Source: a virus. Taken from it: a DNA stretch of 27,449 nt. The notes under the pieces are model-generated. The model was not told the DNA's origin, made no database searches, and saw nothing but the letters and a program-made list of their open reading frames with translations. Position 1 is the stretch's first letter. Every line of letters begins with the position of its first letter. Below are positions 1,432 to 26,870 of this stretch, one piece after another. Location of the stretch: the IMG/VR virus record IMGVR_UViG_3300006845_000035, positions 1-27,449 of that record. The stretch is one strand, 5' to 3'. Position numbers and translations under genes: made by a program.

Positions 1432-2418
1432 GTGCCGCGTGACGCCTTCGCGGCGATCCGTTGGGCGCGCACGGTCCCGGCGGTGCGCCGCGCCGACGGC
1501 CTGCCCGATCACGTCGCGCATCACGTGCTGCTGGTGCTGGCCACCTACGCCGACCGGGAGGGCCGGGCCCGGCCGAGCCTGGCCACGCTGGCGGACGAGG
1601 CGTACGTGGCCGACGAGACGGCCAGGAGCGCCCTGGGGCGACTGCGTCGTGCCGGCCTGATCTCCCCGGCCGGCGACCACGCCGGAACGCCCGTGTGGCA
1701 ACTGGCGCTGACACCGCGCGAGACGGTCACCGGCCGCGAGCAGGACGCCCGCCGGCGGCGTGCCCGCGAGCTGGCGGCCGCCCGCCAGCGTCGGTACGCC
1801 GACCGCCAGCGCAGTGGCGTGACGGTCTCGGACACCGTCAGCCCTGACGGTCTCGGACACCGTCACCTGACGGCCTCGGACACCGTCACGCCGACCACAC
1901 CTGACGGTCTCGCGCACCGTCAACTGACGGTTCCGGAGACCGTCACTAACGGTTCCGCAGACCGTCAGGTGACGGTGTCACGACCGTCATCGTCGCAGGT
2001 CAGCACGGGTGTAACTGCCATAGGAACTACCAATGAACTGCCATTTGAACTGCCACGCGCCGACGAGGCTGTGCCTCGTCGAGAGCGCGCGAGCACAACG
2101 GCCTACTCGGCAGCGTTCGAGGCGTTCTGGGCCGCGTACGGCCGCAAGGGCGCCAAGCGGGCCGCCTACACCGAGTGGCAGCGGGCGACCAAGCGGGCTA
2201 ACCCCGACGTGATCATGGCCCGCGTTGGGCCGTATGTGGCGGGCACTCCGGAGATCCGATACCGCAAGGACGCCGAGCGATGGCTGAAGGGCGACTGCTG
2301 GGAGTCGGCGATTGCGCCGCGCGGCCTGGGCTCTAGCGGCCAGCGGGTGGCATACCAAAGCCCAGTCGATCAATCCGAATATGACGTTTCCTTGAGAAGG
2401 AGCAGAACAGCCAGATGA
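1432..2418 (+). CDS. Replication initiator with winged-helix DNA-binding domain (lambda O-like role); gene contains the putative origin
   Basis: The N-terminal domain (about residues 25-85; HHVLLVLATYADREG, then ATLADEAYVADETARSALGRLRRAGLI) is a typical winged helix seen in phage initiators. Residues 98-125 are very basic. Residues 130-215 are low-complexity and encoded by an iteron array plus short direct repeats. The C-terminal domain (about 225-295; FEAFWAAYGRKGAKRAAYTEWQ) resembles the tail of many phage replication proteins and may contact the helicase loader. The 328-aa length is close to that of lambda O. The GTG start directly follows the upstream stop and has GAGAGGGGG upstream. The DnaC-like loader and DnaB-like helicase follow in ATGA overlaps. 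Inferred role: bind the iterons in its own gene, open the adjacent AT-richer segment and recruit the loader/helicase. Domain calls are by eye. Confidence 0.82.
   Translation: MPRDAFAAIRWARTVPAVRRADGLPDHVAHHVLLVLATYADREGRARPSLATLADEAYVADETARSALGRLRRAGLISPAGDHAGTPVWQLALTPRETVTGREQDARRRRARELAAARQRRYADRQRSGVTVSDTVSPDGLGHRHLTASDTVTPTTPDGLAHRQLTVPETVTNGSADRQVTVSRPSSSQVSTGVTAIGTTNELPFELPRADEAVPRRERASTTAYSAAFEAFWAAYGRKGAKRAAYTEWQRATKRANPDVIMARVGPYVAGTPEIRYRKDAERWLKGDCWESAIAPRGLGSSGQRVAYQSPVDQSEYDVSLRRSRTAR
1820..1989. repeat. Iteron array, seven copies of TGACGGT-N6/7-ACCGTCA inside the initiator gene (putative ori)
   Basis: Six 21-bp copies lie at 1820-1840, 1845-1865, 1868-1888, 1902-1922, 1925-1945 and 1947-1967, with a seventh 20-bp copy at 1970-1989. 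Each is a dyad with TGACGGT/ACCGTCA arms and a 6-7-base centre (CTCGGAC in the first two). Start-to-start spacings are 25, 23, 34, 23, 22 and 23 bp. None is a multiple of three, so copies alternate between two reading frames and encode VTVSDTVS-like or PDGLGHRH-like peptides. That points to selection on the DNA, as in lambda ori within gene O. Function as an origin is inferred. Confidence 0.88.
2012..2055. repeat. Four phased 9-bp direct repeats (GAACTGCCA), candidate DNA-unwinding element
   Basis: TAACTGCCA at 2012, GAACTACCA at 2024, GAACTGCCA at 2035 and GAACTGCCA at 2047 are spaced 12, 11 and 12 bp, close to one helical turn. The stretch 2011-2055 has 20 G/C of 45 bases, far below its surroundings, and starts about 20 bp after the last iteron. 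Iterons next to an AT-richer repeat block match the general plan of initiator-dependent origins. Unwinding here is inferred. Confidence 0.6.
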
Positions 2419-3098
2419 ACGATTTCTCTAACGAGGACTACAACCCCTTCGTGTACGACCCCGATGGGAGCTCGACTTCGGAACAGGAACGTGCGCACTG
2501 GGCCGCGACTCGCCTCAAGCGGCTGATTCCGGCGCACTACCTGGAGCGGTCGGTAACCGCGACCCATTCCGAGGTGGTCGCCTGGGCGGAGGGGGTCGCC
2601 CAGGGCCACCTGTCCAAGGCATGGACGGCGGCTGGACGCAGGGCCCGGTTCCAGGATCGCGAGCTGTCGGGCCCGTCGCTGCTCCTGCTCGGCCCGACCG
2701 GGGTGGGCAAGACCTTCGAGGCGTATGGGGCCCTACGGCTGCTCATCGAGACGAGGGGGGCGCCCGGGTCGATCATGGCCACCACGGCAGCCGACCTGTA
2801 CGCCCGACTGCGCCCCCGCGACCGGGTCGACCCCGAAGCCGAGTTCGAGCGCTTCGCCACCGCCAGCGTGCTTATGCTCGACGACCTCGGTGCGGCAAAG
2901 ATGACCGACTGGACGGAGGAGGTCACGGCCCGCCTGATCGACCACCGGTACAACGGCGTCCGGGCCACGGTGATCACCAGCAACCTCACGCCCGCGAACC
3001 TGGAGTCCACGTTCGGCGAGCGAGTGGTCAGCCGACTGACCGAGATGTGCACGGTCGTCGCGCTCAAGGGCGACGACCGGCGCCGGAGTCCCGCATGA
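2415..3098 (+). CDS. DnaC/IstB-like AAA+ helicase loader
   Basis: The 227-aa protein has an AAA+ ATPase core: Walker A GPTGVGKT at residues 93-100, Walker B VLMLDDLG at 152-159, sensor-I-like ITSN near 187-190, and GERVVSRL at 201-208 carrying the likely arginine finger. This is the pattern of DnaC/DnaI-type loaders, which place the ring helicase on DNA opened by the initiator. About 80 N-terminal residues before the ATPase core probably hold the helicase-contact region. The ATG overlaps the initiator stop (ATGA), and a strong GAGAAGGAG lies at 2394-2402. The following DnaB-like gene overlaps its stop by 4 bases, so initiator, loader and helicase form one coupled module. Confidence 0.9.
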   Translation: MNDFSNEDYNPFVYDPDGSSTSEQERAHWAATRLKRLIPAHYLERSVTATHSEVVAWAEGVAQGHLSKAWTAAGRRARFQDRELSGPSLLLLGPTGVGKTFEAYGALRLLIETRGAPGSIMATTAADLYARLRPRDRVDPEAEFERFATASVLMLDDLGAAKMTDWTEEVTARLIDHRYNGVRATVITSNLTPANLESTFGERVVSRLTEMCTVVALKGDDRRRSPA

Positions 3099-4375
3099 GT
3101 CTGGAGGCCGACGAACCCCCGCACGACATGCAGGCGGAGATGTCCGCGGCCGGCGCGGCCATCCTGTCCGCCGCCGCGCTGGCCGACGTGACCGCGCTGG
3201 TACCGCCGGCCGGCTGGTACTCGCCCCGCCACGGCGTCATCCTGGCCGCCGCACAGGCCGTCGTAGACCGCGGCGAGGGCCTGGACCCGGTCACCGTCAC
3301 GGCCGAGCTGGACCGGCGGGGCCAGCTCACCCGCGTGGGCGGCGCCCCCTACCTGCACACCCTGGTGGCCACCGTCCCCACCACGGCGAACGCCGGCTAC
3401 TACGCGGAGATCGTGGCCGAGAAGGCCGCGCTGCGGCGGGTGATCCAGGCCGGCCGCCGGCTGGTCCAGATCGGCTCATCGCCGGTCGGCGACTCGCTCG
3501 CCGCCGTCGAGCTGGCCCGCGCCGAGCTGGACCGGGTCACCGCCGCGCCCGTCACCGACGAGGACTGGTCGACGCTGCTCGACCGGGTGGTGGACTCCTA
3601 CGACGACGAGGTCGACCCGGGCCTACCCACCCCGTGGCCCGACCTTGACGACATCATCGGCGGGCTCGCTCCCGGCACGCTGACCGTGATCGGCGCCCGC
3701 CCCGGCGGTGGAAAGTCGATCGCACTGGCCAACATCGCCGCCCACACGGCAGCCGGCGGCATTCCCACCCTGGTGCACTCCCTGGAGATGCCCAGCGCCG
3801 AGCTGGTGCACCGCATCATCGCAGCCGAAGCCAATGTCGAGTACCGCGCCCTGCACTCCCACCGGCTCACCGACTGGGACTGGCCGCGCGTCCGCAAGGC
3901 CCAGTCGGCGATGCGAGACCTGCCGTTGCACATCGACGACCGATCCACCATCACCGTGGAGCAGATCCGAGCCACCGCCCGCAGCCTCGGCGACCTCGGG
4001 CTGATCGCCGTCGACTACCTGCAGCTGGTGCAGGGCCCCGACGCCCGCGCGCCGCGGGAGCAGCAGGTTGCCGGCGTCTCCCGTGGCTTGAAGCTGTTGG
4101 CCCGCGACCTGCACGCGCCGGTCGTCGTGGCCGCGCAGATCAACCGGGCTGCCACCACCGGCGCCGGCCGGCCCCAGCTGTCCCACCTGCGGGAGTCCGG
4201 GGCCATCGAGTCCGACGCCGACCTCGTGATCCTGCTGCACCGCGACCCCGAACGCCCCGGCGAAGTGGACGCCGACATCGCCAAGCACCGCCACGGCGCC
4301 ACCGGCGTCGTCTCACTCCAGTGGGCCGGCCACTACGCCCGGCTCCGCACCCTCGCCCAAGGAGGCGCAGCGTGA
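3095..4375 (+). CDS. DnaB-like replicative helicase
   Basis: The 426-aa product has the two-domain DnaB layout. A helical N-terminal domain (about 10-110, including GWYSPRHGVILAAAQ and TANAGYYAEIV) is followed by a linker and a RecA-like ATPase from about 175. Visible motifs are PWPDLDDIIGGL, Walker A GARPGGGKS at 200-208, SLEMP at 229-233, Walker B LIAVDYLQL at 303-311, QINR at 348-351 and a KHRHGATG segment near 397-404 where the arginine-finger region lies. It would unwind DNA 5'-3' at the phage fork and recruit primase. The ATG at 3095 is chosen because it overlaps the loader stop (ATGA); the frame is open further upstream only inside the loader gene. No phage primase was recognised, so host DnaG may be used. 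Confidence 0.92.
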   Translation: MSLEADEPPHDMQAEMSAAGAAILSAAALADVTALVPPAGWYSPRHGVILAAAQAVVDRGEGLDPVTVTAELDRRGQLTRVGGAPYLHTLVATVPTTANAGYYAEIVAEKAALRRVIQAGRRLVQIGSSPVGDSLAAVELARAELDRVTAAPVTDEDWSTLLDRVVDSYDDEVDPGLPTPWPDLDDIIGGLAPGTLTVIGARPGGGKSIALANIAAHTAAGGIPTLVHSLEMPSAELVHRIIAAEANVEYRALHSHRLTDWDWPRVRKAQSAMRDLPLHIDDRSTITVEQIRATARSLGDLGLIAVDYLQLVQGPDARAPREQQVAGVSRGLKLLARDLHAPVVVAAQINRAATTGAGRPQLSHLRESGAIESDADLVILLHRDPERPGEVDADIAKHRHGATGVVSLQWAGHYARLRTLAQGGAA

Positions 4376-5713: not shown

Positions 5714-5970
5714 TGTCCGACTTGGAACAACAGCTCGGCGACGCAGTAGCGGACGACCGAATCACGGTCGCCGACGCCGACGCAGTGCGGACCTTCGCCC
5801 TGTTCCTCCAGGAGACGCCAGCCGGCGTCCGCGCCGCGATCAAGGCCAAGTCCCCCAAGTCCATCGCGGGCTGCTTCGCCACCGTCGCCGAATTTCGCAC
5901 CTGGCGAAACCGCTGGTGGCCCTACGTGATCGGCGAATCGACGGAACCGGCAGCAGGATCACCCGAATAG
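5713..5970 (+). CDS. Hypothetical protein, 85 aa
   Basis: The GTG uses the last base of the preceding stop and has a strong AAGGAGG at 5699-5705, 7 bases upstream, which decides this start. The protein is small, mainly helical and acidic in its first half (SDLEQQLGDAVADDRITVADADAVRTFALFL), with basic and tryptophan-rich residues later (KAKSPKSIAG, TWRNRWWPYV). No family is recognised. Its TAG stop is the first three bases of the first 15-bp operator-like palindrome, so a protein bound there would sit at the end of this gene. Confidence 0.65.
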   Translation: MSDLEQQLGDAVADDRITVADADAVRTFALFLQETPAGVRAAIKAKSPKSIAGCFATVAEFRTWRNRWWPYVIGESTEPAAGSPE

Positions 5971-6023
5971 TGTATGACACTACGCCTCGACCAACCTTGA
6001 TCCGCTGGTAGTGTCATACACTA
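5968..6023. promoter_or_regulatory. Pair of perfectly inverted 15-bp palindromic operators
   Basis: TAGTGTATGACACTA at 5968-5982 and TAGTGTCATACACTA at 6009-6023 are exact reverse complements, 41 bp apart start to start (about four helical turns). Each is itself a dyad, TAGTGT-N3-ACACTA. The first includes the stop of the upstream gene and the second ends on the A of the downstream ATG. A dimeric repressor binding both sites is the natural reading. A long hairpin in RNA (15-bp stem, 26-base loop) is an alternative. Confidence 0.8.
5987..6014 (+). promoter_or_regulatory. Candidate promoter for the 153-aa gene (leaderless)
   Basis: TCGACC (5987-5992, four of six matches to TTGACA), a 16-base spacer, then TAGTGT (6009-6014, fits TAnnnT). 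A start point 7-9 bases beyond would fall on or next to the ATG at 6023. No ribosome binding site precedes that ATG, so a leaderless mRNA is plausible. The -10 is part of the second operator, so repressor binding would block it. Confidence 0.45.
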
Positions 6024-6484
6024 TGAGCGATTGCCTGATGTGCAACACCGAGACCACCGAAACCGTCCGGGGCCGCGACGGCGACCGCACCGGCCCCATG
6101 TGCACCGACTGCCAGCACTGGTGCGACGGCAACCTCGTCGAGAATCCCTCAATGGCCCGCTACTGGCACATCGCGCACCCGTCGTGGCAGCCCGGCCAGC
6201 CGCTCCGCTGCCGCGACAGCCTCATCGCCGACGGCGTCGAGATCCCCTGGCTGTGGGACGAGGCCGACGAGGGCGTGGACGGCGACATCGTCTGCCTGTT
6301 CCCAGACACCGAGCAGGGCCGCCAGCACGCCGACTGGATGCTCGACGACCGCCCCGGCTACCACATCGTCCGCGTGGACCTGCCCGACGGCATCGAGATC
6401 ACCCGCGCATCCTGGGAGGACTTCCCCGCTGTCCGCGGCCAGATCCCCGCCGAGCACCTCACCCGCGTGAACGAGATAGCCTGA
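6023..6484 (+). CDS. Hypothetical protein with N-terminal CxxC knuckles, 153 aa
   Basis: The ATG at 6023 is preferred over an in-frame GTG at 6011 because the GTG lies inside the operator and neither has a Shine-Dalgarno sequence; a leaderless start fits the -10 spacing. The N-terminus carries CLMC, then CTDCQHWC, a likely treble-clef or zinc-ribbon metal site. The remainder is acidic and aromatic (WLWDEADEGVDGDIVCLF, EQGRQHADWMLDD), ending in a small alpha/beta-looking segment (YHIVRVDLPDGIEITRASWEDF). The family is not recognised. It shares a base with the start of the ribbon-helix-helix-like gene, so the two are co-expressed under the operator pair. Confidence 0.7.
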   Translation: MSDCLMCNTETTETVRGRDGDRTGPMCTDCQHWCDGNLVENPSMARYWHIAHPSWQPGQPLRCRDSLIADGVEIPWLWDEADEGVDGDIVCLFPDTEQGRQHADWMLDDRPGYHIVRVDLPDGIEITRASWEDFPAVRGQIPAEHLTRVNEIA

Positions 6485-6672: not shown

Positions 6673-6943
6673 CTGCTTCGCGGACACAGTCGCTCGGCAC
6701 GCAGGATGACCCGCAACACCCGGCGCGTCCTGACCACCCTCCTTGCACGCCGAGATCTTCGCGGGCTACCGTCTGATTGACTCGGACGTTCTGTCCCCAG
6801 GTTCACCACATTAATGATGCGAGGGCCCTGGCCGGCCCCAATGAAGGGAACCGGCCAGGGCCCTCGCCTGTTCGAGCCAACCGCAACCGGTTGCACCCGG
6901 GTTCCGCGGCCTCACGCATGCGCGCGAGAGAGGTTGCCCGGCC
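6673..6943. other. Noncoding segment between early and packaging genes
   Basis: About 270 bases carry no convincing gene. The segment holds a perfect 17-bp hairpin (6819-6867), a 12-bp perfect palindrome GCAACCGGTTGC (6883-6894), and weak promoter-like hexamers (TTGCAC at 6743-6748, 18 bases, TACCGT at 6767-6772). It lies immediately before the small terminase gene, the usual place for a cos or pac site, but no end sequence can be identified by eye. Confidence 0.5.
6819..6867 (+). terminator. Perfect 17-bp hairpin, probable transcription terminator
   Basis: GCGAGGGCCCTGGCCGG at 6819-6835 is exactly complementary to 6851-6867, with a 15-base loop that could close further through CCC/GGG. No U-tract follows, which is common for actinobacterial terminators. 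It would separate early from late transcripts. A packaging-site role is an alternative because the small terminase gene is next. Confidence 0.7.
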
Positions 6944-9043: not shown

Positions 9044-10612
9044 GTGCCGTCGATGCCCCTGCCTGACGGCGACCAGCCCTGGCCGCCGAAGCACCTCGCG
9101 CCCGTCTACAGCCAGATCGCGACCTGGGCGGCGTGGTACTCCGGCGACCCGGAAGCCCTGGCCGCGATCTACGGCGGCAGCCAGGGCTACGACTCGACGG
9201 GGTTCTTCGCGTCCGAGCGGGGCGGCTGGCGCGGCGCGGTCGGACGGGCGATCGAGCGGTGGTTCTGGGGCACCCGCCTATCACAGGGTGAGCAGCGCAC
9301 CAAGCTACACCTCCCCGCCGCCAGCGACATCGCCAGCACCTCCGCCGACCTGCTGTTCAGCGAGGCCCCGACGCTGACCGTTGAGGACAAGGCCACTCAG
9401 GCCCGCCTCGCCGAGCTCGCCGGCGACGGCATGCAGGCCGCCCTACTGGAGGCCGCCGAGATCGCCGCCGGCCTCGGCTCCGTGTACCTGCGCACCGTGT
9501 GGGACACCGAGGCCCGACCTGACGGCCCGTGGCTCACCGGCGTCCACCCCGACGCCGTGGTGCCGGAGTGGTCCTGGGGCGAGCTGGCCGCGGCCACCCT
9601 GTGGCGGGTGCTGCGCGACGACGGCCGCACTGTGGTGCGGCACCTGGAGCGCCACAACCCCGGCCGCATCACCCACGGCGTCTACGAGGGCACCCCGGAG
9701 AAGCTCGGCCGGCCGGCGCCGCTCACGGAGTACCCGGAGACCGCCAGCATCGACGGCCTGTCCGACGGCAACGTGGTCGAGACCGGCGTCCCCAAGCTCT
9801 TGATCGAGTACGTGCCGAACATCAAGCCTAACCGCCTGTGGCGCAACGTCCCCACTGCGGCGCCGTTCGGGAGGGCTGACATCGCCGGCACCGAGCCGCT
9901 GATGGACGCGCTCGACGAGGCGTGGACATCGTGGATGCGCGACCTGCGGCTGGCCAAGGCGCGACTGGTCGTGCCCCGCGCCTATCTCCAGTCCAACGGG
10001 CCCGGCCGCGGCGCTGGCTTCGACGTGGACAAGGAGCTGTACGAGGCGCTGGACATGCTGCCCGGTGACGACACGGGCGCACAGATCACCCTGGTGCAGT
10101 TCGCGATCCGGGTGGAGGAGCACGCCAAGACCGTCGAGGCGCTCTGGTCCAGCATCGTCCGGGCGTGCGGCTACAGCGTCCAGACCTTCGGCGAGCTCGG
10201 CGACGCGGGCGCCGGTGTGACCGCCACAGAGATCCGCGCCCGCCAGCGCCGCAGTTTCATGACGGCTGGTAAGAAGGTCCGCTACTGGCGGCCGCGGCTG
10301 GCGTCGAGCATCGAGACCCTGCTGATGGTCGACGCCGCGGTGTTCGGCAGCCGGATCACCCCGGTCCGGCCACAGGTCGAGTTCGGCGACAGCATCGCGG
10401 AGGACCCGCGCACCACGGCTGAGACCCTGTCGCTGCTGGAGACCGCCCGCGCGATCTCCACCGAGATGAAGGTCCGGGCCCAGCACCCGGACTGGGAGGG
10501 ACCGGAGGTCGCCGCAGAGGTAGCCCGGATCAAGGCCGAGCAGGCCATGAGCGAGCTGACCGACCCCGCCACCTTCCGCGGCAACCCGCCAGCCGACCCC
10601 GCCGAGGAGTAG
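9044..10612 (+). CDS. Portal protein (SPP1 gp6-like)
   Basis: The 522-aa protein follows the terminase gene and has portal-like features. The N-terminal part has PVYSQIATWAAWYSGD. An early core region includes KLHLPAASDIASTSADLLFSEAP, a signature-like stretch of SPP1-type portals. The wing contains VHPDAVVPEWSWGE, and the stem/crown region carries ATEIRARQRRSFMTAGKKVRYWRP. The C-terminus has a helical, acidic run typical of the clip/crown. A dodecameric ring of this protein would form the DNA channel at one vertex and bind the terminase. The GTG start is decided by GGAGG at 9032-9036. GAGGAG at 10604-10609 serves the next gene. Confidence 0.9.
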   Translation: MPSMPLPDGDQPWPPKHLAPVYSQIATWAAWYSGDPEALAAIYGGSQGYDSTGFFASERGGWRGAVGRAIERWFWGTRLSQGEQRTKLHLPAASDIASTSADLLFSEAPTLTVEDKATQARLAELAGDGMQAALLEAAEIAAGLGSVYLRTVWDTEARPDGPWLTGVHPDAVVPEWSWGELAAATLWRVLRDDGRTVVRHLERHNPGRITHGVYEGTPEKLGRPAPLTEYPETASIDGLSDGNVVETGVPKLLIEYVPNIKPNRLWRNVPTAAPFGRADIAGTEPLMDALDEAWTSWMRDLRLAKARLVVPRAYLQSNGPGRGAGFDVDKELYEALDMLPGDDTGAQITLVQFAIRVEEHAKTVEALWSSIVRACGYSVQTFGELGDAGAGVTATEIRARQRRSFMTAGKKVRYWRPRLASSIETLLMVDAAVFGSRITPVRPQVEFGDSIAEDPRTTAETLSLLETARAISTEMKVRAQHPDWEGPEVAAEVARIKAEQAMSELTDPATFRGNPPADPAEE

Positions 10613-25836: not shown

Positions 25837-26073
25837 GTGCCGATCAAAACCAAGCCCGCGAAGGCCATCGCGGCCGCGATCGGCGGCACGCTCACCGCCG
25901 CCGCCACCGCGCTGGCCACCGTCCAGCTCGTACTCGCCGACGACGCCGTGGACCTCGCCGAGTACGGAACCCTCGCCACCGCCGTCGTCACCCTGGTCGC
26001 CACCGTGGCAGCCGTGTGGCGGGTGCCGAACCGGCCGGTCGAGCGCGTCCCGGTAGCTGGCGGTGGGTCATGA
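25837..26073 (+). CDS. Holin-like membrane protein, 78 aa
   Basis: The GTG has GAGGAG at 25824-25829. The 78-aa product has a basic N-terminus (MPIKTKPAKAI), a first hydrophobic helix (about 12-33, AAAIGGTLTAAATALATVQLVL), a short acidic loop (ADDAVDLAEYG) and a second helix (about 44-62, TLATAVVTLVATVAAVW), ending in a basic tail. Two membrane helices, small size and position after the endolysin match class II phage holins, which open the membrane so the lysozyme can reach the wall. It overlaps the antirepressor gene by 4 bases. Confidence 0.82.
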   Translation: MPIKTKPAKAIAAAIGGTLTAAATALATVQLVLADDAVDLAEYGTLATAVVTLVATVAAVWRVPNRPVERVPVAGGGS

Positions 26074-26870
26074 CGGAACTGGCCCGCGCCAACCGCTCCC
26101 CGTTCGACGCGATCCGCCTCATCGACCAGGACGGCGAGCACTGGTCCGGTCGGCAACTGATGCCGCTGATGGACTACTCACAGTGGCGGGACTTCGCCGT
26201 GATGGTCGAGAAGGCCAAGGCATCGCTTGAGTTGGTGCAAGGGCGGGACGCCGCCGCGGCGAATTTTGCGGACATGCGCAAGATCTCGGCGACGCGACCA
26301 GGCGCCGACTACCGGCTCACCCGGTTCGCCGCCTACCTCGTGGCCATGGCCGGCGACGACACCAAGCGCGCGGTCGCCGAGGCCCGGATCTACTTCGCCG
26401 TGAAGACCCGCGAAGCCGAGATGTCCGCCAGCACGCCAGCTCTGCCGGACATCACCACGCCAGCCGGCGTGCTGGCCATGGCCGACATGTTCGCCACCAC
26501 CGCCCGCCAACTGGTGGCCGCGACCGACCGGATTGCCGAGCTGGAACCGAAAGCCGACCTCGCCGACACCTACCTGATCGCCGACGGCGGCACCCGGCTG
26601 GTCCGTGAAGTGGCAAAGCTGCTGCAGCTGCGCGAAGGGGAACTCCGACGGTTCCTGCTCGACGAAAAGCTGATCTTCGCCAAGCATGCTCCGTGCGGCA
26701 ACGTCCAGTACGACCTCTACGCCGAGCACGCCCACCACTTCATCGCCACCGAGACCATCGTCAACCACACGTGGGGCTCGTGCACGCACTACACGCTGCG
26801 GATCACCCCGCGCGGGATCGACCTCATCCGCAAACGCCTCACCGCCGCACGCGCCCCCGCCCTCGCCTGA
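26070..26870 (+). CDS. Phage antirepressor (DinD/BRO-like N-terminus, KilAC C-terminus)
   Basis: The ATG overlaps the holin stop (ATGA). The N-terminal half (PFDAIRLIDQDGEHWSGRQLMPLMDYSQWRDFAVMVEKAKASLE ... YRLTRFAAYLVAMAGDDTKRAVAEARIYFAVKTREAE) matches the DinD/BRO-N-like class of phage regulators. The C-terminal half (TYLIADGGTRLVREVAKLLQLREGELRRFLLDEKLIFAKHAPC ... THYTLRITPRGIDLIRKRL) is a KilAC DNA-binding domain, with its usual MxxAKxL ... xxGxxxLxxxL pattern. Such proteins antagonise repressors or control late decisions. It sits unusually at the end of the late operon, convergent to an HTH gene. A terminator follows at 26894. Confidence 0.85.
   Translation: MTELARANRSPFDAIRLIDQDGEHWSGRQLMPLMDYSQWRDFAVMVEKAKASLELVQGRDAAAANFADMRKISATRPGADYRLTRFAAYLVAMAGDDTKRAVAEARIYFAVKTREAEMSASTPALPDITTPAGVLAMADMFATTARQLVAATDRIAELEPKADLADTYLIADGGTRLVREVAKLLQLREGELRRFLLDEKLIFAKHAPCGNVQYDLYAEHAHHFIATETIVNHTWGSCTHYTLRITPRGIDLIRKRLTAARAPALA

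Follow-up and report, generated by a model that had tools for sequence, protein, structure and literature searches.

Replication genes and the initiator protein

The stretch of DNA analysed here, referred to as the window, comprises the 27,449 bases of the IMG/VR fragment IMGVR_UViG_3300006845_000035, which is part of a genome. It carries three genes that follow one another with overlapping stop and start codons and that encode an initiator, a helicase loader and a replicative helicase (Table 1). The sequence-only reading had placed a loader and the phage's own DnaB downstream of the initiator, and this was borne out by Pfam and PHROG matches: the loader gene scored 50.1 bits against PF01695 (cut-off 24.1), which identifies an AAA+ domain of the loader/IstB type, and the helicase gene contains DnaB N- and C-terminal domains, both above the Pfam cut-offs. 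Farther along the record, terminase, portal, head and tape-measure genes were found together with an antirepressor (Ant-like) gene at 26016-26870 (PHROG 130, E 5.5e-21), which suggests, from gene content, a temperate phage. GC skew along the fragment falls almost steadily, without a usable turning point, and searches of the window for tRNAs and Rfam families gave no matches. Additionally, two perfect 17-bp inverted repeats were observed. The one at 5967-6024 (ATAGTGTATGACACTAC / GTAGTGTCATACACTAT, 24 bp apart) lies between two ORFs and is probably a pair of operator sites, since each arm is itself a palindrome, TAGTGT-N3-ACACTA; the other, at 6819-6867 (GCGAGGGCCCTGGCCGG, 15-bp loop), is GC-rich, lies upstream of the terminase genes and resembles a terminator without a T run.

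The initiator had been described as a winged-helix protein, and the fold is supported by an AlphaFold model in which residues ~7-95 form a confident winged helix (pLDDT >90), with best winged-helix matches at Z 9-10 over 61-67 residues, although the HTH_36 (PF13730) match, at 22.3 bits and E 1.2e-4, falls just below the gathering cut-off of 25. A long basic helix follows, and residues 133-221 are then modelled with low confidence (pLDDT mostly 33-45) and are predicted to be disordered; the iterons and the repeats after them code for precisely this segment. The C-terminal helical domain is again modelled confidently (residues 227-292). None of 22 members gave a convincing Pfam family for this domain, and its comparison with solved structures returned chance-level matches only (Z at most 3.4). 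C-terminal domains of this type occur in many phage replication proteins.

Table 1. Features of the initiator gene and of the genes following it in the window (positions of the window).
Feature	Position	Strand	Basis
Initiator gene, 328 aa, PHROG 270 'replication initiation protein'	1432..2418	+	ORF; PHROG 270 E 1.7e-20, residues 27-293
N-terminal winged-helix domain, proposed iteron-binding	1432..1716	+	HTH_36; AlphaFold pLDDT >90; structural matches
Long basic helix after winged helix	1729..1815	+	model helix, residues 100-128
Iteron 1, TGACGGT-N7-ACCGTCA	1820..1840	+	motif scan
Iteron 2, TGACGGT-N7-ACCGTCA	1845..1865	+	motif scan
Iteron 3, TGACGGC-N7-ACCGTCA, one mismatch	1868..1888	+	motif scan
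Iteron 4, TGACGGT-N7-ACCGTCA	1902..1922	+	motif scan
Iteron 5, TGACGGT-N7-ACCGTCA	1925..1945	+	motif scan
Iteron 6, TAACGGT-N7-ACCGTCA, one mismatch	1947..1967	+	motif scan
Iteron 7, TGACGGT-N6-ACCGTCA	1970..1989	+	motif scan
Block ATCGTCGCAGGTCA, 10/14 matches to ACAACCGCAGGTCA	1989..2002	+	comparison with relatives
Four direct repeats AACTGCCA at 2013, 2025 (as AACTACCA), 2036 and 2048; proposed DNA unwinding element	2013..2055	+	repeat scan
Least stable 40-bp stretch of the initiator gene	2012..2051	.	stability calculation
C-terminal helical domain (F..FW..Y..K), proposed loader/helicase or single-strand contact	2110..2307	+	model
DnaC-like helicase loader (AAA+)	2415..3098	+	IstB_IS21 E 3.5e-13; PHROG 50 E 6e-33
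DnaB-type replicative helicase	3095..4375	+	DnaB_C E 1.5e-68; DnaB N-terminal domain E 6e-22; PHROG 19 E 3e-101

Dyads and low-stability repeats within the initiator gene

Seven dyads of 20 or 21 bp occupy positions 1820-1989, five of them perfect copies of TGACGGT-N6/7-ACCGTCA and two with one mismatch, the spacer being 7 bp in six and 6 bp in the last. Both the array and its start-to-start distances (25, 23, 34, 23, 22 and 23 bp) had been read from the sequence beforehand and were confirmed by a motif scan and by shuffling. The number of dyads expected by chance was 0.00 (100 dinucleotide shuffles of the window), and the rest of the 27-kb record holds no perfect dyad. When synonymous codons were permuted (n=1000) such that neither the encoded peptide nor its codon usage changed, the initiator gene contained 0.59 dyads on average and at most 3, against 7 observed; therefore, it is the DNA, and not the peptide, that is being kept. 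The dyads fall in two reading frames and thus do not represent a repeated peptide. An earlier shuffle statistic, built on the core TNACG with one mismatch, is weak because Val-Thr codons recreate the core, and it was replaced by a half-site test.

Directly 3' of the dyads lie a 14-bp block and an array of AACTGCCA repeats. The origin had initially been placed at 1820-1989, and the dyad part of that claim stands; its extent does not, since the block and the four repeats had been overlooked and the proposed origin runs to ~2055. The block motif ACAACCGCAGGTCA is exact in L085, L105, L191, L193 and L229, where it is read in two different frames. The repeats of the window are 11-12 bp apart and form a partly degenerate array (AACTACCA). 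Only 17 of the ~27,400 40-bp stretches in the record are less stable than the one at 2012-2051, the minimum of the initiator gene shifting to the 3' end of the gene when 50-bp windows are used. The repeat array is likewise the stability minimum of the gene in L006, L007, L008, L085, L105, L191 and L193, and such low stability is as expected of an element that would unwind. As for clustering of AACTGCCA, the level of the window was reached in 0 of 2000 synonymous shuffles, and that of L006, L007, L008, L105 and L193 was reached rarely (p 0.003-0.011). A tandem-repeat statistic gave p 0.70 for the window array, which it misses because the spacing alternates between 11 and 12. AACTGCCA was also considered as a universal phage origin motif and rejected, three spaced copies occurring in 12 viral stretches versus 34 for a scrambled control; most of its matches in genomes are 12-bp tandem repeats.

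Relatives and other initiators with the same C-terminal domain

Relatives of the initiator were identified in viral contigs, with L006, L007 and L008 sharing 47-53% protein identity with it and L105, L085, L191 and L193 being more distant, and in actinobacterial genomes (L229 and L231, then L248, L249 and others). A direct tblastn search of cultured phages with the window protein gave no match, and relatives among cultured phages were reached via L008 and L193. On plasmids, two Klebsiella matches were found, both confined to the N-terminal region of the initiator. In nine related initiators, encoded by other viruses or prophages of actinobacteria, the dyads occupy the corresponding part of the coding sequence, with spacings mostly of 22-25 or 32-34 bp; together with the window, these constitute the detailed set of ten TNACG-type genes. 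In seven genomes, neighbouring detected dyads lie 22-25 or 32-34 bp apart and none at 26-31 bp; L006 has the only two larger gaps, which extend over degenerate copies. L007 and L008 share exactly the series 34, 23, 33, 22, 23, 22, to which the series of the others are similar, and the spacer of the 3'-most dyad is 6 bp in most relatives, the remaining dyads usually having 7.

The half-site itself differs among genomes, being TGACGGT in the window, TAACGCC in L006 and L231, TAACGGT in L007, TGACGCC in L008 and L229, TCACGGC in L085 and TCACGCC in L193, and it changes in all copies of a genome together. Within one mismatch of their own half-site, the window, L006, L007 and L008 contain 7, 5, 3 and 5 dyads, respectively; when half-sites were exchanged among these four, no matches were obtained, apart from one in the window to the half-site of L007. 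L105 and L191 have looser copies. On the question posed with the initial reading, the iterons were found to persist while the peptide varies: relatives of 47-53% identity retain the array at nearly the same spacing, and half-sites and encoded peptide change together. Such concerted change is expected if the sites are read by the gene's own DNA-binding domain, and it is what an initiator co-evolving with its iterons would give. A recognition-helix code, with arginine accompanying TAACG and an acidic residue accompanying CGG in the first genomes, was broken by L258, L249 and L085 (by eye) and was dropped. Initiators of the same family in L230 and in L260/L261 also carry dyads within the gene, although their sequences (GTCCGGGAGCCGGAC; CCCCCGAAGAA-type) are quite unlike those above. 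Separately, L006 contains an ORF (9221-10495) in which a 9-residue repeat (GDTARVEWM / GDTARVGSM) recurs many times in tandem.

A wider survey drew on phages and genomes of diverse origin and covered 36 non-redundant initiators that share the C-terminal motif of the window protein. In 21 of them the 40-bp stability minimum of the gene lay 30-120 bp before the C-domain (~10% expected), and in 26 of the 36 (72%) the stretch preceding this domain was less stable than its synonymous shuffles at p<=0.05. Short tandem repeats (p<=0.05) were present there in 56%, whereas two control stretches of the same genes gave 8% for low stability and 0% for such repeats. A significant excess of iteron-like 8-mers before the C-domain was detected in 18 of 29 actinobacterial and 5 of 15 other genes, against 2 and 3 in the control stretches, and therefore the iteron half of the arrangement is shown for actinophages only; in some distant relatives the iteron signal is weak or absent. 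Linkers are of low complexity, and relaxed constraint may lie behind part of the survey signal, the synonymous-shuffle control covering peptide composition and not local mutation bias.

Among cultured phages inspected by eye, the Arthrobacter phages Andrew, Leona, Galaxy, Basilisk, Kuleana, Chickaboom and LittleTokyo have GGGGTGNAC ~22 bp apart followed by AACCGTCC every 11 bp, the Mycobacterium phages Girr and MooMoo have CGCGAA/TCGCGA-type repeats followed by GGAACAGG, and the Gordonia phages Catfish and Dardanus provide further examples, so that, judging from these sequences, the plan appears common to cultured phages of the three host genera. Across loci L259, L183 and L244, the 8-bp repeat array of GGAACAGG before the C-domain is found in Girr, MooMoo and a bacterial-genome locus (L259), with differing iteron-like repeats upstream. 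It could tentatively be proposed, with somewhat less than even confidence, that a two-part origin in the linker-coding stretch is the general plan of phages whose initiators have the F..FW..Y..K C-domain, beyond actinophages as well. Fast-changing iterons would then be matched to the N-terminal domain, a short, easily melted tandem repeat before the C-domain would serve this domain or the loader, and the two halves would be exchangeable.

A candidate origin and its comparison with known systems

The features described above very probably constitute a lambda-type replication origin inside the initiator gene, composed of iterons and an adjacent, easily melted repeat. This reading, already put forward from the sequence, is supported by the comparison with relatives and by the unwinding-type element located 3' of the iterons, an arrangement also found in lambda ori. 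Through its N-terminal winged-helix domain, the protein encoded by the gene would bind the seven dyads, spaced by roughly two or three turns of the helix, and would fold them into a nucleoprotein complex. Strain from this complex would melt the adjacent low-stability AACTGCCA array (2012-2055), and the C-terminal helical domain, together with the DnaC-like loader, would place the phage DnaB on the opened strand. The cis sites lie in the part of the gene coding for the linker predicted to be disordered, in which nearly any sequence would be tolerated by the protein. Owing to this location, initiator and origin would travel as one piece, and the half-site could change in all copies along with the binding domain.

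The proposed likeness to lambda, whose ori lies within gene O, concerns the layout: in both, dyad iterons occur in the middle of the initiator gene (20, 24 and 23 bp apart in lambda), a low-stability tract comes directly after them, and a helicase-loader gene follows, so that the lambda-like placement suggested initially is upheld. As a positive control, the stability minimum of gene O was computed at gene position 437, directly after the annotated iteron 4 (416-433), which is where the AT-rich tract of lambda has been published (PMC7466680). However, the window has seven iterons, 21 bp long and unrelated in sequence to those of lambda, short direct repeats containing GC where lambda has an AT tract, a DnaC-like loader in place of lambda P, and a phage DnaB. 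No homology of the window initiator to lambda O was detectable (hhalign probability 1.1%, E 0.047). The two proteins belong to different PHROGs, 270 for the window initiator and 277 for lambda O, and their weak PHROG 391 matches concern different parts of that profile. By analogy, the candidate origin is one that would work like lambda ori, but with a protein outside the lambda O family.

The window protein shares sequence family and domain order with the phage initiators of PHROG 270, some of which, in actinobacteriophages, are annotated 'RepA-like replication initiator'. No description of an origin or iterons inside PHROG 270 or actinobacteriophage initiator genes was found in the open literature, to which the search was confined. 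For extrachromosomal mycobacterial prophages, it was demonstrated that repA and its flanking intergenic regions suffice for plasmid replication, and the ori was inferred to lie beside or within repA, no repeats being identified in the region examined (Wetzel et al. 2020, PMC7157519). Among plasmids, iteron origins that have 13-mer unwinding elements, such as RK2 oriV, F and P1, also combine iterons with an unwinding element built of repeats (PMC10797057, PMC5043065), but plasmid iterons usually lie outside the Rep gene, whereas both elements of the window are in coding sequence. Binding of single strands of such unwinding regions has been described for lambda O and plasmid initiators (PMC5043065, PMC7466680, PMC10797057).

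Other functions for the dyads were considered. Operators for winged-helix proteins also look like dyads, and an array of them could allow the initiator or a repressor to shut off its own operon, with replication starting elsewhere; this is improbable, since seven sites in mid-gene, ~400 bp past the start codon, would be unusual for operators, the low-stability array directly 3' would be left without a role, and the arrangement matches lambda ori. Nevertheless, an initiator that binds within its own gene could incidentally repress transcription. Considerably less probable still is a role at the RNA level, in which the dyads would fold in the transcript into successive 7-bp hairpins and so control how the initiator message is translated or how stable it is. 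Although both arms change together, as paired RNA arms do, the distances of 22-25 or 32-34 bp, with none at 26-31 in seven genomes, have a periodicity to be expected of DNA helix faces and not of RNA, and pairing alone would not require all copies of a genome to change to one new sequence. Moreover, the GGGGTGNAC repeats of the related Arthrobacter phages are not clear hairpins. A partition (parS-like) or packaging site, located in the initiator gene by chance, would also take the form of a repeat array, but the loader and helicase genes immediately downstream and an iteron identity that tracks the initiator gene make this equally remote.

Few replication start sites of actinobacteriophages are known, and the window gives a precise, sequence-defined candidate origin for one such phage replication module. 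It also offers a search rule, namely dyads in the linker-coding stretch followed by a low-stability short repeat before the C-domain. The relatives, with a common layout and differing half-sites, form a natural series in which the co-evolution of initiator and origin becomes testable. Finally, these observations suggest a reason why such origins are found inside the gene, in that the disordered linker is where the protein can carry arbitrary DNA.
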